Source of the DNA: Pseudooceanicola marinus | Lineage (GTDB): Bacteria > Pseudomonadota > Alphaproteobacteria > Rhodobacterales > Rhodobacteraceae | DNA: 64,000 nucleotides | Direction of reading: 5' to 3' | Assembly (NCBI RefSeq): GCF_002786295.1 | Contig: NZ_PGTC01000024.1 | Location: forward strand, 1 to 64,000 | Shown here: positions 46,852 through 57,337 of the stretch, in pieces | How positions within the stretch are numbered: position 1 is the stretch's first letter | Layout: each line of letters starts with the position of its first letter | Program-made: the position numbers and the translations under genes | Notes under the pieces: model-generated | Seen by the model: only the letters and a program-made list of their open reading frames with translations | Databases searched by the model: none | What the model was told of the DNA's origin: nothing

Positions 46852-46873
46852 CACCCGCCGAAAACGGCGGGTG
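46852..46873 (-). terminator. Terminator hairpin of the AAA/DUF1523 cluster
   Basis: Perfect 9-bp stem CACCCGCCG / CGGCGGGTG with loop TTTT on the transcribed strand, followed by AACCTTTTG. It lies 55 nt after the stop of the DUF1523 gene. Confidence 0.75.
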
Positions 46874-46927: not shown

Positions 46928-47554
46928 TCACTTCTTCTTGCGCCAACTGGCGAACCAGCCCGAGACACGGCCCCGGCCGTCGTCCCAGCTGTCCTCGACG
47001 TTCTCCATAACCGGGTCGATGCGCCGTTCGCGGAAACGGATCCAGCGTACGCGGATCGCCCAGCAGATCGCGGCGAAGATCAGCAGGATGATGATGTTGA
47101 ACCAGGGGATCAGCGTCACGTCGGGGCTGTCCAGGGCGCGCACGCCGACGGCATTGGGGAAGATCGAAATGAACTCGTTCCGCCAGCCGTAATGGGTCAC
47201 CGCCACCCACTGCGGGTTGGCGGAGGTGGAGCGCAGGTCGGCCGCCTCGGTCTGCAGGTTGTTGGTGTCAAACTTGAAATAGGGCGGCCAGCCCCAGCCC
47301 GTGTCCTCGTTGCGATAGACCATCGGACGACCGTTTTCACGGATCGACTGGATGAAGAAGACGTCGCGGTTGACGGTTTCGCTGGCATTGCCGGTGTCGG
47401 CCTTGGCCCAGAAGATCGAATTCTCGCCGAAATCGACACGCCGCTCGAAGGTGTCGGTGATGCGCACGATGTCGCGCTGCGGCAGGGTGTAGTGGAAGAA
47501 GGCCGCGATCAGCAGCCAGAAGACGGCCCAGAGGGCCCATTTCACGTAGCGCAT
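46928..47554 (-). CDS. DUF1523 family membrane protein
   Basis: 208 residues; AAGGGAG lies 5-6 nt before the ATG. It has one N-terminal TM (WALWAVFWLLIAAFFHY), a periplasmic middle (LPQRDIVRITDTFERRVDFGENSIFW and GWGWPPYFKFDTNNLQ), then a second TM (PWFNIIILLIFAAICWAIRV) and a basic C terminus. This matches DUF1523, conserved in Rhodobacterales, of unknown function. It is the last gene of a seven-gene leftward cluster and is 11 nt after the small TM gene. The position suggests that it anchors or senses for that system at the membrane. Confidence 0.82.
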   Translation of the reverse strand: MRYVKWALWAVFWLLIAAFFHYTLPQRDIVRITDTFERRVDFGENSIFWAKADTGNASETVNRDVFFIQSIRENGRPMVYRNEDTGWGWPPYFKFDTNNLQTEAADLRSTSANPQWVAVTHYGWRNEFISIFPNAVGVRALDSPDVTLIPWFNIIILLIFAAICWAIRVRWIRFRERRIDPVMENVEDSWDDGRGRVSGWFASWRKKK

Positions 47555-47565
47555 GGCGGTCTCCC

Positions 47566-47835
47566 TTACATGAAGTTCACGAGATAGATGATGAAGCCCA
47601 CGATCACCACCGGCAGGATGTAGATCAGCAGGATCAGTTTGCGACGCAGGGAATCGTCGTAGTCGTCCAGCCCCCGTTCGACATAGTCCGCGCGGTCGCC
47701 GGGGCGACCCTCTTCCTCCCAGGCGCGCTTCAGCTTGCGGCGGCGGACCTGGCGCGACCAGATAGAGATCACGACATAGGCCAGGGTCATGACGACGAAG
47801 GCTACCAGGGCCAGGCGGACAAAGGCGAAGACCAC
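47566..47835 (-). CDS. Small two-TM membrane protein of the AAA cluster
   Basis: 89 residues from GTG 47833-47835, fixed by AAGGAGGT 5 nt upstream. It has a TM at ~5-25 (ALVAFVVMTLAYVVISIW), a basic/acidic cytoplasmic loop (RQVRRRKLKRAWEEEGRPGDRADYVERGLDDYDDSL), then a TM at ~68-87. The DYVERGLDDYDDSLRRKL loop resembles other Rhodobacterales small membrane proteins next to DUF1523. It starts 3 nt past the stop of the DUF6638-like gene, so the genes are coupled. Confidence 0.75.
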   Translation of the reverse strand: MVFAFVRLALVAFVVMTLAYVVISIWSRQVRRRKLKRAWEEEGRPGDRADYVERGLDDYDDSLRRKLILLIYILPVVIVGFIIYLVNFM

Positions 47836-47838
47836 GGG

Positions 47839-49233
47839 CTACCTCCTTTCGCGGATCACCGCGCCCCAGGGGCCGACGATCGGCACGGGATCGGGCGCCG
47901 GGCTCTTGTTGGTGCGCGACCAGGGGCCGGTGCGCCGACTGGGCGCCGCGGCGGGCGCGGGGGCGGGCGCCGGGGCATCATGGCCAAAGAGCGCCTCACG
48001 CGTACCGGCCTTGTCGGCGAGGTAATCGCGCGACAGGAAATCCGCGACATAGCTTTTCTTGGTGTCGCTCCACCCGGCGTAGAGCGCATAGAACAGCTCC
48101 TTGTGGCAGATGAACAGCTGCCGCACGTCCTTCGGCGCCAGTTCCGCCAGGAGCATGTTCACCAGGTCGCGGTCCGGGGTATCGGCGGCGCGCAGCAGGT
48201 AGAAATAGGCCGGGTCCTCAGGCGAATGGCGCGGGCGGCGGCCTCCCTCCTCCAGCCAGGCGACGACGCGGCGGATCTGGTGGTATTCCGCGGGCAGCCG
48301 CTCGGCATTGTCACGGGCCAGGGCGCGCAGGTCGCGGGCGGTGGCGCCGGCCAGGTCCAGCCCGCCGTCCTGGGCCGCATCCACGACGATGAAATCCATT
48401 TTCTGCCGCAGCACCCGCGCCGCATCGAAGCCGCGCGCGGTGACCAGCGGCTGCACCAGGCCGTTGCCATGCAGCCAGGCGGCCACGTCACGCGGGTCGC
48501 CCATGTCGACCACCGGCAGCGGCGGCTTGCCCAGGCGCGCGGGCTCGCGGGCCAGCAGCGCCGGCGTGTCGCATTCGGAAAACAGGTAGACGCCGCCCAG
48601 ATGCGAGGTCCAGAAATTGTCCTGGTGGAAGGCGGTGTGTTTCAGCCGGATCGGGTTGCGCGTCACGTCGCCGGTCTTGCGCGCCAGGGCGATCATCTCG
48701 TCAATCAGCGCATCATCGAACCAGGCGTCCTCCTCATCGAGGAACCGTTCGGCGCGCGCGGCCAGCGCCTCGGCATCGCGCAGGGTGCCGGTGGTGGTGT
48801 CGGCCTCGATGGTCAGGCGGCGGACATCCATCAGCTTCTGCGCGCTGTCGATATCGAAGACCCCGTTCACCATCTCCCCCGCCACGGCATCGCGGGCGGT
48901 CAGGGCGAACAGCTGCGCCTCGTTGCGATCGATGAACTGGCGCAGCAGGGCCCGCGTGGTCGAGAAGCGCGCGTTCAGCAGCGGCGCCGATTTCTGCCGC
49001 GTGCTGAGCAGTATGATCTGCCGGTTCACCCCGTTGCGGTTGAGGTACTGCGGATCCCCCAGCTCATCCGCCACCTCGGGGGAATAGCCCGAGATGTCGA
49101 TGGCGAACTCGGTCAGCGCGGTGCGTTTGCCGGTCAGATGGTGGAGCGCGCGGTTATACCGCTCGACCAGCGCGGGCGTGTCGACGCGGGTGAGGTTGGC
49201 GAACATCAGGCCGGCTTGGATGAGGCGGTTCAT
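47839..49233 (-). CDS. DUF6638-like conserved protein
   Basis: 464 residues, no membrane segment. Blocks are MNRLIQAGLMFANLTRVDTPALVERYNRAL, YLNRNGVNRQIILLSTRQ, LKHTAFHQDNFWTSHLGGVYLF and HKELFYALYAGWSDTKKSYVADFLSRDYLADKAGTRE; the last ~45 residues are Ala/Pro-rich and ends GPWGAVIRERR. The blocks fit DUF6638, by recollection of the family, so the name is tentative. It is 4-nt-coupled (ATGA) to the upstream coiled-coil membrane gene. It is conserved next to an AAA ATPase and TelA-like gene in related organisms, by inference, and is of unknown function. Confidence 0.7.
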   Translation of the reverse strand: MNRLIQAGLMFANLTRVDTPALVERYNRALHHLTGKRTALTEFAIDISGYSPEVADELGDPQYLNRNGVNRQIILLSTRQKSAPLLNARFSTTRALLRQFIDRNEAQLFALTARDAVAGEMVNGVFDIDSAQKLMDVRRLTIEADTTTGTLRDAEALAARAERFLDEEDAWFDDALIDEMIALARKTGDVTRNPIRLKHTAFHQDNFWTSHLGGVYLFSECDTPALLAREPARLGKPPLPVVDMGDPRDVAAWLHGNGLVQPLVTARGFDAARVLRQKMDFIVVDAAQDGGLDLAGATARDLRALARDNAERLPAEYHQIRRVVAWLEEGGRRPRHSPEDPAYFYLLRAADTPDRDLVNMLLAELAPKDVRQLFICHKELFYALYAGWSDTKKSYVADFLSRDYLADKAGTREALFGHDAPAPAPAPAAAPSRRTGPWSRTNKSPAPDPVPIVGPWGAVIRERR

Positions 49234-50063
49234 GGCATGTTACTCCAAATCTCTTCCGAGCCAACTAGATCCGACCAAGCATAGGCAGCCTGCTCAAGCC
49301 AGAGGCTTTCCAGCCAGATGTTGTCGTCTTCGCTGAGATCCGACGACAACTGCAAAATTCTGTTCAGAATGAGAGAGATTTCAAGATGCTCAGGCAGCAG
49401 TTCCGGCTGCCTCTCGCATTCCCCCGCCAATCCGCTTCCCAACAGCTGTTGTTCAAGACGAACTGACTGCTTGCAAAACTGGCGAACAGCCAGCCCAAGC
49501 GTCGCCTCTCCCTGAGTTAAGACACGTTGGTCTGCGATGGTCGGGATTGCAGCTTCATATTGCGTAATGGGAGTGCCTGTGCGTCCTATTCTGGCCCAGA
49601 CATTGTCCTCGACTTTCAATTCCGAAGTGAAGATGACGAGCTGCTCCAAATGGCGGAACAAGACTCGTCGGGCCGCCCCCTCAGCTCGCTGCTTTTGTTC
49701 GCCCCGAAAGATGTCGGCTTGCGCTTCCATCGCCTTGAGTTGCTTGCCCTGGACCTCGCGCGCAAGCTCCAACTCATCACGCTGCGCCTCAAGCGCTGCG
49801 CGCTGCTCCTTCAGTTCGTTCTTCTGAATGAAGGCAGTTACGATCAGCCAGAGGAAAGCCAAAGAAGCGGCGAGCCCGGCGAGGGCGTCTCCCATGGAAT
49901 TCAGGGGCAGAGACCAAAACTCGGATGCCCGCGTTTCCCCGGACTCACCGGGCGCGGGCTGGCGACCGAGCCAGTAGACACCCACGAAAACCGCAAGAGT
50001 CCCTAAAGCACCGAAACGCATAGGTGTCAGCTTTTGCCTTAGATGCCAGGCCATCCCCTTCAT
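49230..50063 (-). CDS. Membrane protein with coiled-coil, probable insertion in the cluster
   Basis: 277 residues from ATG 50061-50063. It has a TM at ~16-31 (RFGALGTLAVFVGVYWLG) and a second at ~55-75 (ALAGLAASLAFLWLIVTAF), then a coiled coil (QKNELKEQRAALEAQRDELELAREVQGKQLKAMEAQADIF) and a soluble helical C terminus. No family is recognised beyond general similarity to TM/coiled-coil proteins with PDDEXK-free domains. Base composition and codon use are visibly less GC-rich than neighbours, and a 160-nt spacer precedes it, so it may be a later insertion into the operon. The stop/start overlap with DUF6638 shows it is translated with it. Confidence 0.68.
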   Translation of the reverse strand: MKGMAWHLRQKLTPMRFGALGTLAVFVGVYWLGRQPAPGESGETRASEFWSLPLNSMGDALAGLAASLAFLWLIVTAFIQKNELKEQRAALEAQRDELELAREVQGKQLKAMEAQADIFRGEQKQRAEGAARRVLFRHLEQLVIFTSELKVEDNVWARIGRTGTPITQYEAAIPTIADQRVLTQGEATLGLAVRQFCKQSVRLEQQLLGSGLAGECERQPELLPEHLEISLILNRILQLSSDLSEDDNIWLESLWLEQAAYAWSDLVGSEEIWSNMP

Positions 50064-50223
50064 CCTCTCCCCCCCTCCCCCTGTCCCGCCCGGCGGGCAC
50101 CGCCGGGCAGCGCCCGACCCGCCCCCCAGGGCGGGCGCTACACGCCCACCCTCGGGTCCGGCGCTGCCCTCGGCACTTTGGGCCAACCCGTCACGGCCAT
50201 CGGTCATGGGGCACAGTTCCCCA

Positions 50224-52179
50224 TCACTCTCCCCGCTCCTTCAGATACCGCCGCTTCGCCTCTTCCGTACGCTCCATGTCGCGCACCATGGCGTCAATGG
50301 CCGCGGCATCGGACTTGTCGGCATAGCGGAATTCGCTGTCGGCGTAGCGGTTGATTTCCTGCACCACCATCTCGACGGTGATCGGCTGGCGCAGCTCCTC
50401 GATCATGGCGCGTTTGGTGTCGTAGTCCTTGAACAGGAACAGCTCCGGCTCCTCCATCCATTCGTCGGGCAGCTCGAAATCCATCGCGCGGACCTTCACC
50501 GCGTCGGTGATGTTCTTGATCGCGCGGCCCGTGAAACGCGGGTCGGCCTGCTGGATCGCCTTCAGGTAGCTGCCCAGCTTGGCGATCGTGTCCAGCGGAC
50601 CGGTGCGGCGCTGGATCTCGTCGTAGACCTCGACCAGCTGCGCCTCCTTGGGCCGCGCGTGGCTGGCAAAGCTCTCGGCAACGGCGCGCTGGATCTCCTG
50701 AGCGGCGTAAAGCTCGTGATCGCCCAGCGGGATCTCGTGCCGCTTGCCCAGCAGAAGGGCCAGGATGTCGACGTAGTCGTCGCGGGTCTGCGGCCCGTCC
50801 ACCAGGAAGCGGGCGCCGGCGCGCTGGCGCAGGGCGTCGTCGACGTTCTCGGGGTAGTTCGAGAACATGCCGAAGGTGCAATTGCCGCGCACCACGGTAT
50901 TGGCGCCGGCGAAGCTTTCCATCAGCACCGCCGTGATCTCCTGCTGCCCTGCGGAGGACTGCCGGTCGCCGCGCTTGCCCGCGATCTGGTCGATGTCGTC
51001 GATGGTGCCGAAGCCGATGACGGCGGGGTCCAGGATGTCGGAGATGAAGGCCTTGGCGTTCTGCCCCGACTTGCCCTGATAGCTGTCGATGTTCTCGGTC
51101 GAGAGGTTGCGGTAGCGGAAGGGGTAGCCGGCGGTCTGGCAGTAGTCGTTCAAGAGACCCGCCATCATCTGGATCAGGGTCGTCTTGCCGGTGCCGGGCA
51201 TGCCGTCGCCCATGAAGGTGAAGATGAAACCGCCCAGTTCCGCGAAGGGGTTCAGCTTGCGGTCGAAATCATAGGCCATCAGCATCTTGGCCAGCTTCAT
51301 GGCCTGGTACTTGGCGATATGGTTGCCCACCACCTCATGCGGCTTCTTGAAGGTCATCACCAGCTGGGTGGATTTCGCATGGGCCGCGGGGGTGAAGCCA
51401 CGGATGGTCAGGTCATCGGCCTCGATGCGCCAGGTGGCGGCGGTGAAGGCGCCCAGGTGCGGGTGGCTGTCGGCGCGCAGGGCGGTCTTTTCCATTACCA
51501 GCGCGGCGTAACCCGTGAGGGTCGGCACCAGCTTTTCTTCCTCGCCCGTGGCGAAGGTTGCCAGCTTCTGATCCAGCTCCCACAGCATCCCCTGCAGGGC
51601 CAGGGGGGCGTTGTCGGTCAGGATCTCCTCCGCGTCGCCCGGGTCGACCGTCAGCTCTCCCATCTGCGACGACAGGAGGTAGGACAGGGCATTGGCGGTG
51701 ACATGCAGCTGCAGCAGCGACTGGGCTGCCAGCAATTCGGAAAACTCGGCGGCGCGGTCGCGCGGCAGGCTGCCCGCAAGGTTGGCCCCCTTCAGCTCCG
51801 CCAGGGCGGTGGCCTCGGCGAAACTGTCGCCCAGGGCCATGGCGATGGCCAGCGCCCGGCGGATGGCGCGGGCCACGGCGGCCTGGCGGGGCGAGGTCAG
51901 CGGGTCGTCACCGTCACAGGCAGCGATGGTGTCGAGCAGATGAACGCCCCCGGCGGGCCGGGTGCGGCGCGTCGCAAGGCCGGGCGTGGTAGAGCGGAAG
52001 CGGCGGCGCGACAGCCCGATGCCGGGAGACCGCTCCTCGCCCTGCGCGGGCGCCGACGCGGCGCTTTCCCGGGCCAGCCGGGGGGCGTGGTCGAACCCCT
52101 CCAGCAGGGCCTCGGCGGCGGCGTAGTGCTGCCGGATGTCCTCCTCGCGCAGCTCCATCTGGTCTCCGGTCAGGCTCAT
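50224..52179 (-). CDS. Classical AAA ATPase
   Basis: 651 residues; GGGAGGGG lies 6-8 nt before the ATG. N-terminal ~230 residues are helical and unfamiliar. The AAA domain (~290-480) has Walker A GMPGTGKTTLI near 325-335, Walker B IGFGTIDDIDQIAG (with two acidic residues), sensor-1 CTFGMFSNYPENVDDALRQRAGARF (SRH with arginine fingers), and then a helical C-terminal lid including IKNITDAVKVRAMDF. This is the classical AAA clade (CDC48/spastin-like, remodelling type), not MoxR. The centre of the seven-gene cluster; it probably remodels the TelA-like or membrane partners. Confidence 0.88.
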   Translation of the reverse strand: MSLTGDQMELREEDIRQHYAAAEALLEGFDHAPRLARESAASAPAQGEERSPGIGLSRRRFRSTTPGLATRRTRPAGGVHLLDTIAACDGDDPLTSPRQAAVARAIRRALAIAMALGDSFAEATALAELKGANLAGSLPRDRAAEFSELLAAQSLLQLHVTANALSYLLSSQMGELTVDPGDAEEILTDNAPLALQGMLWELDQKLATFATGEEEKLVPTLTGYAALVMEKTALRADSHPHLGAFTAATWRIEADDLTIRGFTPAAHAKSTQLVMTFKKPHEVVGNHIAKYQAMKLAKMLMAYDFDRKLNPFAELGGFIFTFMGDGMPGTGKTTLIQMMAGLLNDYCQTAGYPFRYRNLSTENIDSYQGKSGQNAKAFISDILDPAVIGFGTIDDIDQIAGKRGDRQSSAGQQEITAVLMESFAGANTVVRGNCTFGMFSNYPENVDDALRQRAGARFLVDGPQTRDDYVDILALLLGKRHEIPLGDHELYAAQEIQRAVAESFASHARPKEAQLVEVYDEIQRRTGPLDTIAKLGSYLKAIQQADPRFTGRAIKNITDAVKVRAMDFELPDEWMEEPELFLFKDYDTKRAMIEELRQPITVEMVVQEINRYADSEFRYADKSDAAAIDAMVRDMERTEEAKRRYLKERGE

Positions 52180-52270
52180 GGCGCGCCCCTCCCCTCTTCA
52201 CTTCGTTCCAAATACTCAAACCTGCGAAAGACATCCGCGCGCGGCGCGGACGGGTCTGAAAACAATCAGC

Positions 52271-53401
52271 TCAGTAGCGCAGCACGCGGTCCCCCGCGCC
52301 GACGACGAACTTGCGGATACGGGCAAAGCCTGGCGGGTTCAGTTCCGACAGCACCTGGAAGGGCCGCGCGGGCAGGATCAGCGCCCGGTCCTGCGAGGTG
52401 GCGCCCGTTTCGGCCCCACCCGACAGCGGGTCGAGGGCGAAGATTTCCCGCTCCACCTGCCCGAACCAGCCGCTTTTCTCGGTCTTCACCCGTTCCGACA
52501 ACAGCTCCTCCGAGGTCCAGGCCAGCGCCCAATCCTCGCCCTCGGCACCGCCCGCGCCTTCCAGCACGTCGCGGATGGGTCCCGACTGGCGGGTGAAGGC
52601 GTGGGAATACATCGGACCGATATGGATGCGGCGTAGGCGTTTCGGGTGCAGGTCGTCGAAATCCTGGTCGAACCCCTGCGCGATGGTCAGCAGTTTCAGC
52701 CCGCCCAGGCTCTGCGCCACCAGATGCGCCTGCACCTGCGGCCAGCGGCTCTGGTCCTTGGGCAGGCCGGTGCGGCCACTGTCCTCCACCTCCATCAGGT
52801 AGATCACCGGCAGGTTGGTGCCGCTATCGTAGACCGACCAGTGCAGCAGGTAACGCCGCCGCTGCGCGCCCTTGCCGCCCAGGTTTTCCAGCCAAACGGC
52901 GTCAGGATCGTTGCGCGGCCAGAACAGGTCCCCGCGCGCCAGCTCCTCGTAGTAGAGGCGTTGCGACAGGGCGAACTGCGTCTTGGTGGGCACCGCGTGA
53001 TCCGACAGGATCTGATCCAGCATCTGCCGCTTCAGCGCCTCGACCGAGGGCATGGAGGCCAGGTGCTTGCCCGCCTGGCCGGCGTCATTGGCCATCACCA
53101 TCAGCTCCTGCGCCGTGGGAAAGCCGCTTTCGTGGTTGTCGATGGTCAGCGAGCCGAAGAAGCGGCCGGTGTCGCGCCCCGCCAGCAGGTATTTCATCGA
53201 CAGCGCGCGGAAGGTGAAGGTCAGCGCCGAGATATGGCGGGCCAGCACCTCGGTCTCCGGCTCGCTCAGCGTCCTTTCCGCGCGCATCGCGGCAGCGACA
53301 TGGGCCAGGTGGGCCATGATCGCCTCGAACTTGCGGAAGTAGCGGCGGGAGGCATGGAAATCGGTGATCCCCACGCGGTCGTTCAGATCGTCCTGTTGCA
53401 T
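52271..53401 (-). CDS. Conserved protein of the AAA cluster, unknown
   Basis: 376 residues, soluble. Helical N terminus (RYFRKFEAIMAHLAHVAAAMRAERTLSEPETEVLARHISALTFTFRALSMKYLLAG summarised), a middle LHWSVYDSGTNLPVIYLMEVEDSG and HLVAQSLGGLKLLTIAQGFD, then PARPFQVLSELNPPGFARIRKFVVGAGDRV. No signal peptide, TM, or known catalytic motif is seen. It lies 91 nt upstream of the AAA ATPase and 132 nt after the TelA-like gene, same strand. It is likely a dedicated partner of the ATPase; no function is assigned. Confidence 0.72.
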   Translation of the reverse strand: MQQDDLNDRVGITDFHASRRYFRKFEAIMAHLAHVAAAMRAERTLSEPETEVLARHISALTFTFRALSMKYLLAGRDTGRFFGSLTIDNHESGFPTAQELMVMANDAGQAGKHLASMPSVEALKRQMLDQILSDHAVPTKTQFALSQRLYYEELARGDLFWPRNDPDAVWLENLGGKGAQRRRYLLHWSVYDSGTNLPVIYLMEVEDSGRTGLPKDQSRWPQVQAHLVAQSLGGLKLLTIAQGFDQDFDDLHPKRLRRIHIGPMYSHAFTRQSGPIRDVLEGAGGAEGEDWALAWTSEELLSERVKTEKSGWFGQVEREIFALDPLSGGAETGATSQDRALILPARPFQVLSELNPPGFARIRKFVVGAGDRVLRY

Positions 53402-53533
53402 CGCTTCCCGGCCTTGGTGGTCGTCATCGGGGGCCTGCCTGTCCCAGCTGGCACATCATCCCCGCAGGGGGACGGGACGGCGGGCGGGGCGAGGCGTCCC
53501 GCAGGGCGCCAGCGCCGCACCGCCCGCCCCGCC

Positions 53534-54610
53534 TCAGGCGCCGTAGAGGTTCTTGTCGTGGGTCTCGACGATCTTCTGGAACCGCCGGGCAAACCGCTCA
53601 TCCGCCTTGGCCTTGGCCTCCAGCACCTCGCGGGCAAAGACCATCTGGCCCTCGTGGGCCTCCATCATGTCGGCCATGCGCGAGTTCGTCGCCGCGCCGA
53701 TCTGGGCCATGGCCTGCTGTGCCTGTTTGTCCGTCTCCACCCCGATCTCGTTGATCCGGTGGGCCACTTCCTGCTGCTGCGCAGTCTTCAGCGACTTGGT
53801 CAGCGCATCGTAGAGGATGACCCGCTGGTTGGTGTCCGTCTTCAGCTTGTTGATCAGTACCATCTGCGTCGCCGCCTGGTTCTGCAGGCTGTCGACCCAG
53901 GTCTTGCCCTTCTCGATGTAGCGTTCCAGCGTCTGCGACTTGGCGATCTTCACCTGCTCGTCCTGCACCAGCGCGTTGTACTTGGTGTTCAGCGCCGCCA
54001 GCTCCGATTCCAGCCGGGTACGCGCCGCCGCGTCCTGTTCCACCGCGATCTTGTTTTCGAGCTCGATGATCTTCGGATCCATGTCGGTGATCTCCGACCG
54101 CAGGTCCTCCAGCCCCTGCACCGTCGCCTCGCGTTCATCCAGCGTGGCGGTCAGGTTCTTTTCCACCTTGTCCTTCTGCTCTTCCAGAACGGCCAGCTGG
54201 CCTTCCAGCAGGCGGGTGATGGTGTCGGACTTGGCGATCAGGTCCTGCAGCTTGTCGTCGATGGAGGCGGTGCGGATCCGCTCCTGCCGCATGTTGTCCG
54301 CCTTCGCCTTGGAGAAGATGCCGACGAAGCTCTCCCAGCCGGTCTTGTTGCGCATCTCGTCGAAGTCCTTCGAGAACTGCGCGGTCACATCGTCGAGGCC
54401 CATGATCAGCTCGGCGATATTGGCGTTCATCGCTTCTGTATGGGCATGGACGTCATCCAGCGTTGCGTTCTCGATCTCGATCGAGACGTCCTCGCCGGTG
54501 TCCATCTTGGCGCGCGCCGTCTCGATCCGGCCGGTCAGTTCGGAAATCTTCGATTGCGCCTGGGCAACCTCTTTCTGGCTCTGCTCAAGCTGGGCCTCGA
54601 AACTCGACAT
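53534..54610 (-). CDS. TelA-like coiled-coil protein
   Basis: 358 residues from ATG 54608-54610 with CGGAGGA 5-6 nt upstream. It is almost entirely alpha-helical with long coiled coils (SQKEVAQAQSKISELTGRIETA; EEQKDKVEKNLTATLDERE; ELENKIAVEQDAAART). The C-terminal half, MVLINKLKTDTNQRVILYDALTKSLKTAQQQEVAHRINEIG, resembles the TelA/toxic-anion-resistance family, which forms helical bundles with stress or tellurite links. The resemblance is inferred by eye. It is the first gene of the cluster and possibly the substrate of the AAA ATPase. Confidence 0.72.
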   Translation of the reverse strand: MSSFEAQLEQSQKEVAQAQSKISELTGRIETARAKMDTGEDVSIEIENATLDDVHAHTEAMNANIAELIMGLDDVTAQFSKDFDEMRNKTGWESFVGIFSKAKADNMRQERIRTASIDDKLQDLIAKSDTITRLLEGQLAVLEEQKDKVEKNLTATLDEREATVQGLEDLRSEITDMDPKIIELENKIAVEQDAAARTRLESELAALNTKYNALVQDEQVKIAKSQTLERYIEKGKTWVDSLQNQAATQMVLINKLKTDTNQRVILYDALTKSLKTAQQQEVAHRINEIGVETDKQAQQAMAQIGAATNSRMADMMEAHEGQMVFAREVLEAKAKADERFARRFQKIVETHDKNLYGA

Positions 54611-54811
54611 GGCGTCCTCCGTCGGAAATGTCGTCAACTATATGGGGAGAGTTAATCGGATTTACATCCACCTGGCCGTCCCCGAATAAAATCCCTTGGC
54701 CACGTTCATGGGACGGGACGGCGCGCAACACAAGCCGCTTTGCCCGTTGCGGTGCCTGCACCGGCGGGTTTTAGTGCGCCGGGAATGTGGGCCGGAAGAA
54801 GGAGAGGCGGG

Positions 54812-55801
54812 ATGCGCAACACGATCACCGATGTGGAGGGGCTGCTGGTCGGCCAGGCGCAGGATCTGTCGGTCAAGACCGGGGTGACGGTGCTGACGGC
54901 CGAGGCGCCCTTCACCGCTGCCGTGCACGTCATGGGCGGCGCGCCGGGCACCCGCGAAACCGACCTGCTGGCGCCTGACAAGACGGTGCAGCAGGTGGAT
55001 GCGCTGGTGCTCTCGGGCGGCTCGGCCTTCGGCCTGGATGCGGCGGGCGGCGTGGCGGATGCGCTGCGCCGGGACGGGCGCGGGTTCCAGGCCGGCCCCG
55101 TGCGGGTGCCCATCGTGCCGGGCGCGATCCTCTTCGACCTGGTGAACGGCGGCGACAAGGATTGGGACGAAAATCCTTACAAGGCGCTCGGCCAGGCGGC
55201 CTATGCCGCGCGCGGGCAGGACGTGGCCCTTGGCACCGAAGGCGCGGGCACCGGCTGTGTCACCGCTGGCATCATGGGCGGGCTGGGCTCGGCCTCCGTC
55301 CGGCTTCCCTCGGGCCACGTGGTGGCGGCGCTGGTGGCGGTGAATGCGCTCGGCGCGGCCCATGTGGGCGGCACCCGGCATTTCTGGGCGGCCCCGTGGG
55401 AGATGGGCGAGGAATTCGGCGGGCTGGGCCTGCCGTCGCAGTTCCCGGACCCGCACACAGCGGTCACCAAGGCCGGCCTGGCGCGCGAGGCGGCCAATGC
55501 CCGCGCCAATACCACCATCGGCATCGTCGCCACAGATGCGGATCTGACCCAGGCCCAGGCCAAGCGGCTGGCGACGGCGGCGCATGACGGCTACGCCCGC
55601 GCCCTGGTGCCCAGCCACGCCCCCGAAGACGGCGACCTGATCTTTGCCGCCGCCACCGGCGCGAAACCGCTGGGCGAGGGCACTGGCCTGCTGGAGCTGG
55701 GCCATGCCGCCGCGATCTGCATGGCCCGCGCCATCGCGCGCGGCGTGCAGACGGCCCGTCCGCTGCCCGGCAACCCCTTCCCCTGCTGGTCCGATCTCTG
55801 A
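54812..55801 (+). CDS. P1-family (DmpA-like) N-terminal nucleophile peptidase
   Basis: 329 residues; AAGGAG lies 8 nt before ATG 54812. Blocks: MRNTITDVEGLLVGQAQDL, VTVLTAEAPFTAAVHVMGGAPGTRETDLL, VLSGGSAFGLDAAGGVADAL, VPGAILFDLVNGG, GTEGAGTGCVTAG and the autocleavage region NARANTTIGIVATDADLTQAQ, in which the Thr of NTTIG is the likely nucleophile after self-cleavage. Family members are aminopeptidases or beta-peptidyl aminopeptidases. It is 60 nt before gabD, so may be cotranscribed. Confidence 0.9.
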   Translation: MRNTITDVEGLLVGQAQDLSVKTGVTVLTAEAPFTAAVHVMGGAPGTRETDLLAPDKTVQQVDALVLSGGSAFGLDAAGGVADALRRDGRGFQAGPVRVPIVPGAILFDLVNGGDKDWDENPYKALGQAAYAARGQDVALGTEGAGTGCVTAGIMGGLGSASVRLPSGHVVAALVAVNALGAAHVGGTRHFWAAPWEMGEEFGGLGLPSQFPDPHTAVTKAGLAREAANARANTTIGIVATDADLTQAQAKRLATAAHDGYARALVPSHAPEDGDLIFAAATGAKPLGEGTGLLELGHAAAICMARAIARGVQTARPLPGNPFPCWSDL

Positions 55802-55861
55802 CGGGCTGGCACCTGCCACAAACCGCGCTACCCTCCTGCGCAACAGACGAAGGAGAGCCCC

Positions 55862-57337
55862 ATGCCCGACGCCGCCAAGACCGACCTGAAATCCCTGTTG
55901 AAGGACCCCAGCCTGCTGGCCGACGCCGCCTATGTGAACGGCGACTGGATCCGCGGCGAAGAGGGCACCTTCGACGTGGTGAACCCCGCCCGGGGCGACG
56001 TGATCGCCCAGGTCGCCGACCTCAGCCGTGCCCAGATCGGCAAGGCGATCGACGCGGCCCATGCCGCGCAGAAGGACTGGGCGCAATGGACCGGCAAGGA
56101 ACGCGCCAAGGTCCTGCGCAAGTGGTTCGACATGATGATGGAAAACCAGGACGACCTGGGCACCATCCTGACCGCCGAACAGGGCAAACCGCTGGCCGAG
56201 GCCAAGGGCGAGATCGCCTACGGTGCCGGCTTCATCGAGTTCTTCGGCGAAGAAGCCAAGCGGATCTACGGCGAGACAATCCCCGGCCACCAGCGCGACA
56301 AGCGGATCACGGTGCTGAAGCAGCCCATCGGTGTCGCCGCCTCGATCACGCCCTGGAACTTCCCCAATGCGATGATCACCCGCAAGGCCGGCCCGGCCCT
56401 GGCGGCCGGTTGCAGCTTCGTCGCCCGCCCCGCCAAGGAAACGCCTCTGTCGGCGCTGGTGCTGGGCGTGTTGGCCGATCGCGCGGGTATCCCCAAAGGG
56501 GTCTTCAACGTGGTCACCTCCTCGAAATCCTCCGATGCGGGCAAGGAATTCTGCGAGAACCCCAAGGTGCGCAAGCTGACCTTCACCGGCTCCACCGAGG
56601 TGGGGCGCATCCTGCTGAAACAGGCCGCCGACCAGGTGATGAAATGCTCGATGGAGCTGGGCGGCAATGCCCCCTTCATCGTCTTCGACGACGCCGATCT
56701 GGATGCCGCCGTCGAGGGCGCCATCACCTGCAAGTTCCGCAACAACGGCCAGACCTGCGTCTGCGCCAACCGCATCTACGTGCAATCGGGCGTCTATGAC
56801 GCCTTCGCGCAGAAACTGAAGGACCGCGTGGCCCAGATGAAGGTCGCCGACGGCTTCGAAGAGGGCGCCGAACTGGGCCCGCTGATCAACGCCGAGGCCG
56901 TGGACAAGGTCGAGGATCACATCACCGACGCCCGCGCCAAGGGCGCCGAGGTGATCCTGGGCGGCCAGAAGGGCGAAAGCGGCCTCTTCTTCGATCCCAC
57001 CATCGTCACCGGCGCCACGCCGGAGATGAAGTTCTCCACCGAGGAAACCTTCGGGCCCCTCGCGCCGCTGTTCAAATTCGAGACGGTCGAAGAGGTGATC
57101 GAACTGGCCAACGACACGATCTTCGGCCTGGCCAGCTATTTCTACGCCAAGGACCTGTCCCGCGTGACGCAGGTGCAGGAGGCGCTGGAATACGGCATCG
57201 TCGGCGTGAACACCGGCCTGATCTCGACCGAGGTGGCGCCCTTCGGCGGGGTGAAGCAGTCGGGGCTGGGCCGCGAAGGCAGCCACCATGGCATCGAGGA
57301 ATTCCTCGAAATGAAATACGTCTGCACCTCGGTTTAA
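55862..57337 (+). CDS. gabD: Succinate-semialdehyde dehydrogenase (NAD(P)+)
   Basis: 491 residues; GAAGGAG precedes the ATG. An aldehyde dehydrogenase of the GabD class, with ITPWNFPNAMITRKAGPALAAGC, FTGSTEVGRILL, catalytic Glu265 (MELGGNAPFIVF) and Cys299 (GQTCVCANRIYV). The C-terminal GVKQSGLGREGSHHGIEEFLEMKYV is typical of GabD. It oxidises succinate semialdehyde to succinate in GABA or 4-hydroxybutyrate breakdown. A strong hairpin at 57346-57365 follows the stop. Confidence 0.93.
   Translation: MPDAAKTDLKSLLKDPSLLADAAYVNGDWIRGEEGTFDVVNPARGDVIAQVADLSRAQIGKAIDAAHAAQKDWAQWTGKERAKVLRKWFDMMMENQDDLGTILTAEQGKPLAEAKGEIAYGAGFIEFFGEEAKRIYGETIPGHQRDKRITVLKQPIGVAASITPWNFPNAMITRKAGPALAAGCSFVARPAKETPLSALVLGVLADRAGIPKGVFNVVTSSKSSDAGKEFCENPKVRKLTFTGSTEVGRILLKQAADQVMKCSMELGGNAPFIVFDDADLDAAVEGAITCKFRNNGQTCVCANRIYVQSGVYDAFAQKLKDRVAQMKVADGFEEGAELGPLINAEAVDKVEDHITDARAKGAEVILGGQKGESGLFFDPTIVTGATPEMKFSTEETFGPLAPLFKFETVEEVIELANDTIFGLASYFYAKDLSRVTQVQEALEYGIVGVNTGLISTEVAPFGGVKQSGLGREGSHHGIEEFLEMKYVCTSV

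Follow-up and report, generated by a model that had tools for sequence, protein, structure and literature searches.

The stretch analyzed here, referred to as the window, comprises the first 64,000 nucleotides (nt) of contig NZ_PGTC01000024.1 of Pseudooceanicola marinus. It contains a leftward array of seven genes, numbered 1 to 7 from the P0001 gene to the DUF1523 gene, which encode a coiled-coil-like protein (P0001), a soluble protein (P0002), an AAA ATPase, a membrane protein (P0004), a DUF6638 protein (P0005), a protein with two transmembrane (TM)-like segments and a DUF1523 protein (Table 1). The original prediction, made from the sequence alone, had proposed that these genes form one undescribed system. 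All seven open reading frames (ORFs) were found at the predicted places. For P0004, a start at 50063 is likelier than one at 50207. The predicted overlap or abutment of starts with preceding stops holds for the DUF6638 gene, whose start overlaps the P0004 stop by 4 nt according to the coordinates, and for the two-TM and DUF1523 genes, which start within 3 and 11 nt, respectively, of the preceding gene. It does not hold for the P0002 and AAA genes, which follow gaps of 132 and 91 nt. The hairpin predicted as a strong terminator is present, but such terminator-like sites are no commoner in the scanned stretch than in shuffled sequences (6 versus 6.4).

Table 1. Genes and other features of the array, with positions in the window.
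Feature	Position	Strand	Description
Core gene 1, P0001	53534..54610	-	358 amino acids (aa); highly charged, Pro/Gly-poor, helical, coiled-coil-like, soluble
Slot A (P0001-P0002 gap)	53402..53533	-	132 nt, cargo-free in the window
Core gene 2, P0002	52271..53401	-	376 aa, soluble
Core gene 3, AAA ATPase	50224..52179	-	651 aa; about 320 residues N-terminal to the Pfam AAA match
Start of slot B, taken as noncoding	50064..50223	-	Palindromic repeat, arms at 50106-50120 and 50154-50168
Slot B cargo gene, P0004	49230..50063	-	ORF extends to 50207; a single TM-like segment followed by a charged stretch
Core gene 4, DUF6638 protein (P0005)	47839..49233	-	464 aa, no TM-like segment
Resident pair gene 1, two-TM protein	47566..47835	-	89 aa
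Resident pair gene 2, DUF1523	46928..47554	-	208 aa, two TM-like segments
Terminator-like hairpin	46852..46873	-	9 pairs, 8 of them G-C; T-rich tail

The labels given to three of the proteins were confirmed by Pfam, with 49 bits for AAA (PF00004), 661 bits for DUF6638 (PF20343; cut-off, 27) and 238 bits for DUF1523 (PF07509; cut-off, 23). As predicted, the AAA protein is a classical AAA ATPase by its Walker A, Walker B and second region of homology (SRH). The Walker A motif GDGxPGTGKTT is invariant in 26 sequences, and the SRH reads DALRQRAGARF in the window and DALRQR...R in 151 of 153 loci. AAA proteins usually carry Asp-Glu in Walker B, whereas the motif here ends in Asp-Asp (TIDD in the window; IDD or VDD in 151 of 153 loci). 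The replacement of the catalytic Glu by Asp may result in slow ATP turnover. Hydropathy gave no TM-like segment for P0001, P0002, the AAA protein or the DUF6638 protein, two each for the two-TM and DUF1523 proteins, and one for P0004, where the charged stretch behind it looks coiled-coil-like by eye. Searches of Pfam, NCBIfam, PADLOC and PHROGs at E<=1 returned nothing for P0002, a soluble protein that is conserved as far as Vibrio and Sinorhizobium. In profile searches against the PDB, the AAA protein gave one AAA match at E<=0.001, P0001 gave weak matches to designed coiled coils only (E 0.27-0.37), the best E value for DUF6638 was 0.2, and nothing meaningful was obtained for P0002 (best E 1.4). 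The DUF6638 family has no described function, and three of the four core families are without a known one. Residues 100-157 of P0004 match the phage family phrog_9267 (function not known) at 1.4e-7; no relative of P0004 was found in plasmids or phages by tblastn.

P0001 had also been labeled TelA-like, and one explanation of the locus is a TelA-based operon for resistance to tellurite or toxic anions. Like members of the TelA/KlaA family (PF05816), P0001 is a long, helical-looking, soluble protein, which is the resemblance that the label had drawn on. No sequence relation was detected, however. TelA was absent from the Pfam matches of P0001 itself at E<=1, from the 25 listed of the 36 families matched by 26 P0001 members, and from the matches of two divergent homologues, one from Vibrio and one from Rhizobium. 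A profile-profile comparison (hhalign) of P0001 with TelA of the same order gave a probability of 0.2 and an E value of 0.37, not above shuffled profiles, in what is a weak test with low-diversity profiles. In addition, a gene that exceeds the Pfam cut-off for TelA is located elsewhere in the genome (G000:C9:286218-286835; 40 bits against 30). The TelA identity of P0001 was rejected, and a resistance operon of this kind is very improbable.

The main survey covered 196 genomes from 88 genera of a single family within the order. P0001, the AAA protein and DUF6638 each matched in 113 of these genomes and in 53 of the 88 genera, and the three lists of 113 genomes, compared by eye, were identical. 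For P0002, co-occurrence was derived from a first survey of 61 loci; the gene was present in 60 of them, and the remaining locus lies on a contig that starts inside the AAA gene. DUF1523, by contrast, matched in 189 of the 196 genomes, whether the core was present or not. Because P0001, AAA and DUF6638 co-occur in 113 genomes and DUF1523 stays behind, it is four genes (P0001, P0002, AAA and DUF6638) that form the unit, a core located upstream of a resident two-TM/DUF1523 pair. The proposed seven-gene membership is thereby reduced: the four core genes belong together and are not scattered in related genomes, whereas the DUF1523 gene occurs regardless of them and P0004 is variable cargo, as described below.

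The surroundings of the DUF1523 gene were retrieved from 13 core-less genomes and at four further loci in genomes that carry the core or remnants of it (a second copy each in G074, G130 and G119, and the sole copy in G123). The two-TM gene adjoins the DUF1523 gene in 11 of the 13 core-less genomes. Both flanks were like those of core-bearing loci in 9 of the 13, one flank in 3 and neither in 1, where some of the upstream matches are possibly to paralogous dehydrogenases. Since the core-less loci share flanks and keep the pair, what varies is whether the core lies immediately upstream of the resident pair. G123, which is counted among the 113 genomes, has a decayed core (L086; G123:C52:17299-32720) with P0001, P0002, AAA and DUF6638 truncated or in pieces, and its two-TM/DUF1523 pair is on another contig (L233).

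Gene order was counted in 137 unique main-subtype loci, which include a few that do not belong to the family. The decayed L086, L089 and L090 (one genome, two contigs), the divergent L178 and L188-L199, and the window itself were dropped before these counts, and three duplicate loci were removed; the duplicates were kept in the counts of cargo sharing, start offsets, empty slots, AAA motifs and repeats. Genes 1, 2, 3, 5, 6 and 7 were all present in 128 of the 137 loci, in one order and on one strand in all 128, so that the expected conservation of gene neighbors was found, and far beyond chance. Five of the nine exceptions are cut by contig ends (L094, L133, L161, L163 and L164), L187 is without a recognized gene 6, and L100 is an AAA gene alone in a metagenome bin. 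L115 and L130 contain genes 1 to 3, yet neither DUF6638 nor the pair was detected in the next 10 kb, which is occupied by other genes; these two loci may represent a rearrangement or a very large insertion.

Within 18 Ruegeria-type loci, the median omega of the core genes was 0.029, 0.042, 0.044 and 0.083, and that of genes 6 and 7 was 0.128 and 0.055, and the core is under strong purifying selection. The median synonymous divergence was 0.56-0.69 for the core (0.56-0.59 for genes 1 to 3) and 1.2-1.8 for genes 6 and 7. The lower value in the core would be expected from recombinational exchange of the module, but codon bias could also contribute to it. A full-text search of the open-licence PMC literature did not return DUF6638 as a term, and the papers matching DUF1523 and DUF2333 were, by their titles, not about the present operon. 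No description of the operon was found in the titles and abstract beginnings obtained from that search. The fixed order, the all-or-none presence, the purifying selection and this literature result agree with the proposal of a recurrent, undescribed system.

The gaps within the array differ strongly in size. Among the unique loci, gaps of more than 200 nt were found between P0001 and P0002 in 79 of 135 loci, between P0002 and AAA in 14 of 136, and between AAA and DUF6638 in 113 of 133, but between DUF6638 and the two-TM gene and between the two-TM and DUF1523 genes in none of 129. The core therefore has two cargo slots, slot A between P0001 and P0002 and slot B between AAA and DUF6638. In the unique loci, slot B contains 133 operon-strand ORFs in 107 loci, which fall into 55 clusters, 37 of them singletons. 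Clustering was by BLASTP at an E value of 1e-4, which could have separated small membrane proteins that have diverged, and several singleton slot ORFs, in GC-rich slots, look noncoding by eye. Slot A contains 61 clusters in 83 loci. The P0004 type of cargo was present in 7 of the 61 first-survey loci, the window included; P0004 is one of many alternative slot B cargo types and not part of the core.

Cargo differs even between loci whose cores are nearly the same. In the Ruegeria-type loci, the median protein identity was 97% for P0001, 96% for P0002, 95% for AAA and 91% for DUF6638. DNA identity was 92.6% over the final 60 nt of the AAA gene and 95.2% over the first 60 nt of the DUF6638 gene, but the intervening DNA, from the AAA stop to the DUF6638 start, was mostly different. 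At 95-99% AAA identity, 14 of 116 pairs of loci shared a cargo cluster, a share little above the 187 of 2,694 at 70-75% (pairs not independent). Cargo proteins of the same cluster had a median identity of 33%, versus 76% for the accompanying AAA proteins (582 pairs).

In 76 of 110 loci, the first slot B ORF started no more than 10 nt from the AAA stop (offset -1 in 55 of the 76), whereas only 6 of 85 starts were this close in the control downstream of gene 7. This test was restricted to slots of at least 300 nt and to first ORFs of at least 90 aa. The cargo starts are coupled to the preceding AAA stop, and this coupling is probably translational.

The slots also contain a family of palindromic repeats (window 50106-50168, arm GGCAGCGCCCGACC), detected in 24 slots; these belong to 22 loci, one of which is that of the window. 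The density of the arm was 0.18-0.19 per kb in slots and 0.004 elsewhere in the loci, a control that includes coding DNA. Movement of cargo by the repeat is not claimed as a mechanism, this being an association only.

To describe the cargo, 45 representatives, P0004 among them, were annotated with Pfam at E<=0.001. Matches were obtained to Mrr_N/Mrr_cat, DUF559, PIN_10, DUF433, AbiJ_NTD4, DUF3825, DUF2971 and, weakly, HATPase, besides secondary matches such as MTES_1575. Those to Mrr_cat, DUF559 and PIN_10 are far over the Pfam cut-offs. AbiJ_NTD4 (36.5 against 34), DUF433 (23.9 against 23.6), DUF2971 (27 against 22) and DUF3825 (34.8 against 27) also exceed theirs, whereas MTES_1575, HNH, DUF4145 and HATPase remain below. 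The PIN_10 gene adjoins the DUF433 gene in L098. With PADLOC, cargo proteins matched type IV restriction, PDC-S02, PDC-S31, PDC-S37 and other models, with one member per model, and one of the 45 matched the DrmA model at 7.6e-9. Restriction, toxin and abortive-infection families occur among the cargo, which is a statement of presence and not of enrichment over background.

Many cargo proteins are predicted membrane proteins. A TM-like segment was present in at least one member of 37 of 56 slot B clusters, and 68 of the 83 slot A ORFs have one to three such segments, being mostly small membrane proteins. The core might then insert, hold or remove small membrane proteins, with the cargo as clients rather than effectors, and AAA proteins commonly remodel or extract proteins. 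The occurrence of Mrr-, AbiJ-, PIN- and DUF559-type proteins in the same slot does not fit with such a role, nor does the lack of a TM-like segment in the four core proteins of the window, and this explanation is unlikely.

Core genes were also searched for beyond the main survey. Of 385 genomes drawn across the class, 7 matched, including 2 that do not belong to the family. Among 398 genomes drawn across the phylum, P0001 gave 29 matches; 15 of these lie outside the family, and three of the 15 are weak (loci L194-L196, holding P0001 alone). Ten divergent loci keep the order 1-2-3-5, and 11 plasmid records (Sinorhizobium, Vibrio, Rhizobium and Shinella) carry P0001 homologues. Two Halomonas genomes (L153 and L154) have a copy about 70% identical, which nests within the Rhodobacteraceae beside Leisingera with a support of 1.00 in the AAA tree and 0.99 in the P0001 tree. 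The core is horizontally transferable and sporadic outside the family.

The favored reading is that the locus represents an undescribed AAA module with exchangeable, coupled cargo, which would function as an anti-phage or anti-mobile-element (conflict) machine. The defense function gains indirect support from the types of cargo and from the cargo turnover, and we give this reading an even probability. In the mechanism proposed, P0001, P0002 and DUF6638 would assemble into a sensor or scaffold in the cytosol, which the AAA ring would remodel upon a trigger. The cargo (small membrane proteins, nucleases and AbiJ-type or PIN toxins) would act as an effector or second line, be produced in step with the AAA protein, and be swapped between strains as phages adapt. 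In the present genome, the effector would be P0004 as a membrane-anchored, coiled-coil-like protein. A more specific proposal, possible but put forward tentatively, is that the four-protein AAA core constitutes a new class of immune machine in alpha- and gammaproteobacteria that licenses any effector placed in its slot, the effectors being swapped one gene for another in the interval from the AAA stop to the DUF6638 start.

Several results weigh against a defense function. None of the core proteins is a convincing known defense component in PADLOC, and most of the scanned cargo clusters are without annotation. The phage records and viral contigs searched yielded no core genes (no P0001 in the former, no P0001 or AAA relatives in the latter), and a phage-borne origin is unsupported. 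Flanking genes are common to many loci, so the site is often fixed and no defense island is evident. Cargo was shared more often at intermediate AAA identity (17 of 39 pairs at 85-90% and 22 of 88 at 90-95%), indicating that turnover is not uniform. The cargo was more alike than the AAA proteins in only 1 of the 582 cargo-sharing pairs, a result that does not support recent horizontal movement of individual cargo genes from one lineage to another. Both slots were 200 nt or shorter in 15 of 133 loci, one of them a duplicate, indicating that the core persists without cargo. Finally, slow evolution of the core is unusual for an arms race.

Some of these points favor a different explanation, in which the core serves in stress tolerance or housekeeping, such as membrane or protein quality control by an AAA ATPase, and the gaps are tolerant, well-expressed landing places for hitchhiking genes. 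The cargo-free cores, the shared flanks of an often fixed site, the slow core evolution and the very mixed cargo would all be consistent with it. However, cargo-sized gaps are concentrated in two of the five positions and the cargo starts are coupled to the AAA stop, which is more order than passive landing needs, and the patchy presence and the transfer to Halomonas also argue against a housekeeping role. We consider this explanation less probable than the defense reading. Even if the core were a housekeeping module, a two-slot operon in which 95% identical cores carry mostly different cargo would represent gene-for-gene exchange inside an operon. If instead the cargo consists of effectors licensed by the core, the slots would be a catalogue (55 clusters in 107 loci) in which candidates are found by position and not by similarity. 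Functions would then be assigned to DUF6638 and two unnamed families, the patchy, all-or-none operon of marine Rhodobacteraceae would be explained, and how one ATPase core works with unrelated effectors would become directly testable.

The defense reading was also compared with known systems. The AAA protein matches the PADLOC model TRIP13 at 4.9e-5, which is a domain-level AAA match, and P0001 gives weak, coiled-coil-type matches to REase_II (0.00099) and LmuB (0.0036). Operons of the cyclic oligonucleotide-based antiphage signaling system (CBASS) type have a conserved core, with an AAA protein (TRIP13) in some types, and varying effectors, including membrane proteins and nucleases. The present locus is similar in combining a core that includes an AAA protein with cargo that differs between genomes. 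It differs in that no CD-NTase or HORMA-type PADLOC match was found among the seven window proteins, and in that the cargo is located in two fixed gaps of the core operon. Extra defense-type genes inside a conserved operon are a feature shared with bacteriophage exclusion (BREX), defense island system associated with restriction-modification (DISARM) and type I restriction loci, and an ATPase operon with variable small membrane partners is shared with phage restriction by an adenosine deaminase acting on RNA (RADAR). The signature proteins are PglZ for BREX, DrmA/DrmB for DISARM and RdrA/RdrB for RADAR; none of these was matched by PADLOC among the seven window proteins, in which signature proteins of type I restriction are likewise lacking.

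Some loci outside the family differ in composition from the window. L153, L154 and L186, the last from another class, contain the six-gene unit with an empty AAA-DUF6638 slot outside the alphaproteobacteria and are nested beside Leisingera. On two Vibrio megaplasmids of about 0.93 Mb (L213 and L214), divergent P0001, P0002, AAA and DUF6638 genes are immediately followed by a gene annotated as mfd, and genes 6 and 7 are lacking. In Sinorhizobium (L215), the core is accompanied, by annotation, by a DUF559-type gene, an insertion sequence (IS) and DUF2333. A distant P0001 homologue stands alone with DUF2333 on plasmid pSK03 of R. leguminosarum (L216; 9794-12148), at a site matching that of L215, and is perhaps a remnant after core loss.

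Upstream of the array, window positions 54740-57337 contain two neighbors that we take, by eye, to be a P1-type peptidase and an aldehyde dehydrogenase. Homologues of these occur in the DNA retrieved for 27 and 91 loci, where the dehydrogenase matches may include paralogues. Since the upstream neighbors recur at other loci, the site may be fixed in many genomes.

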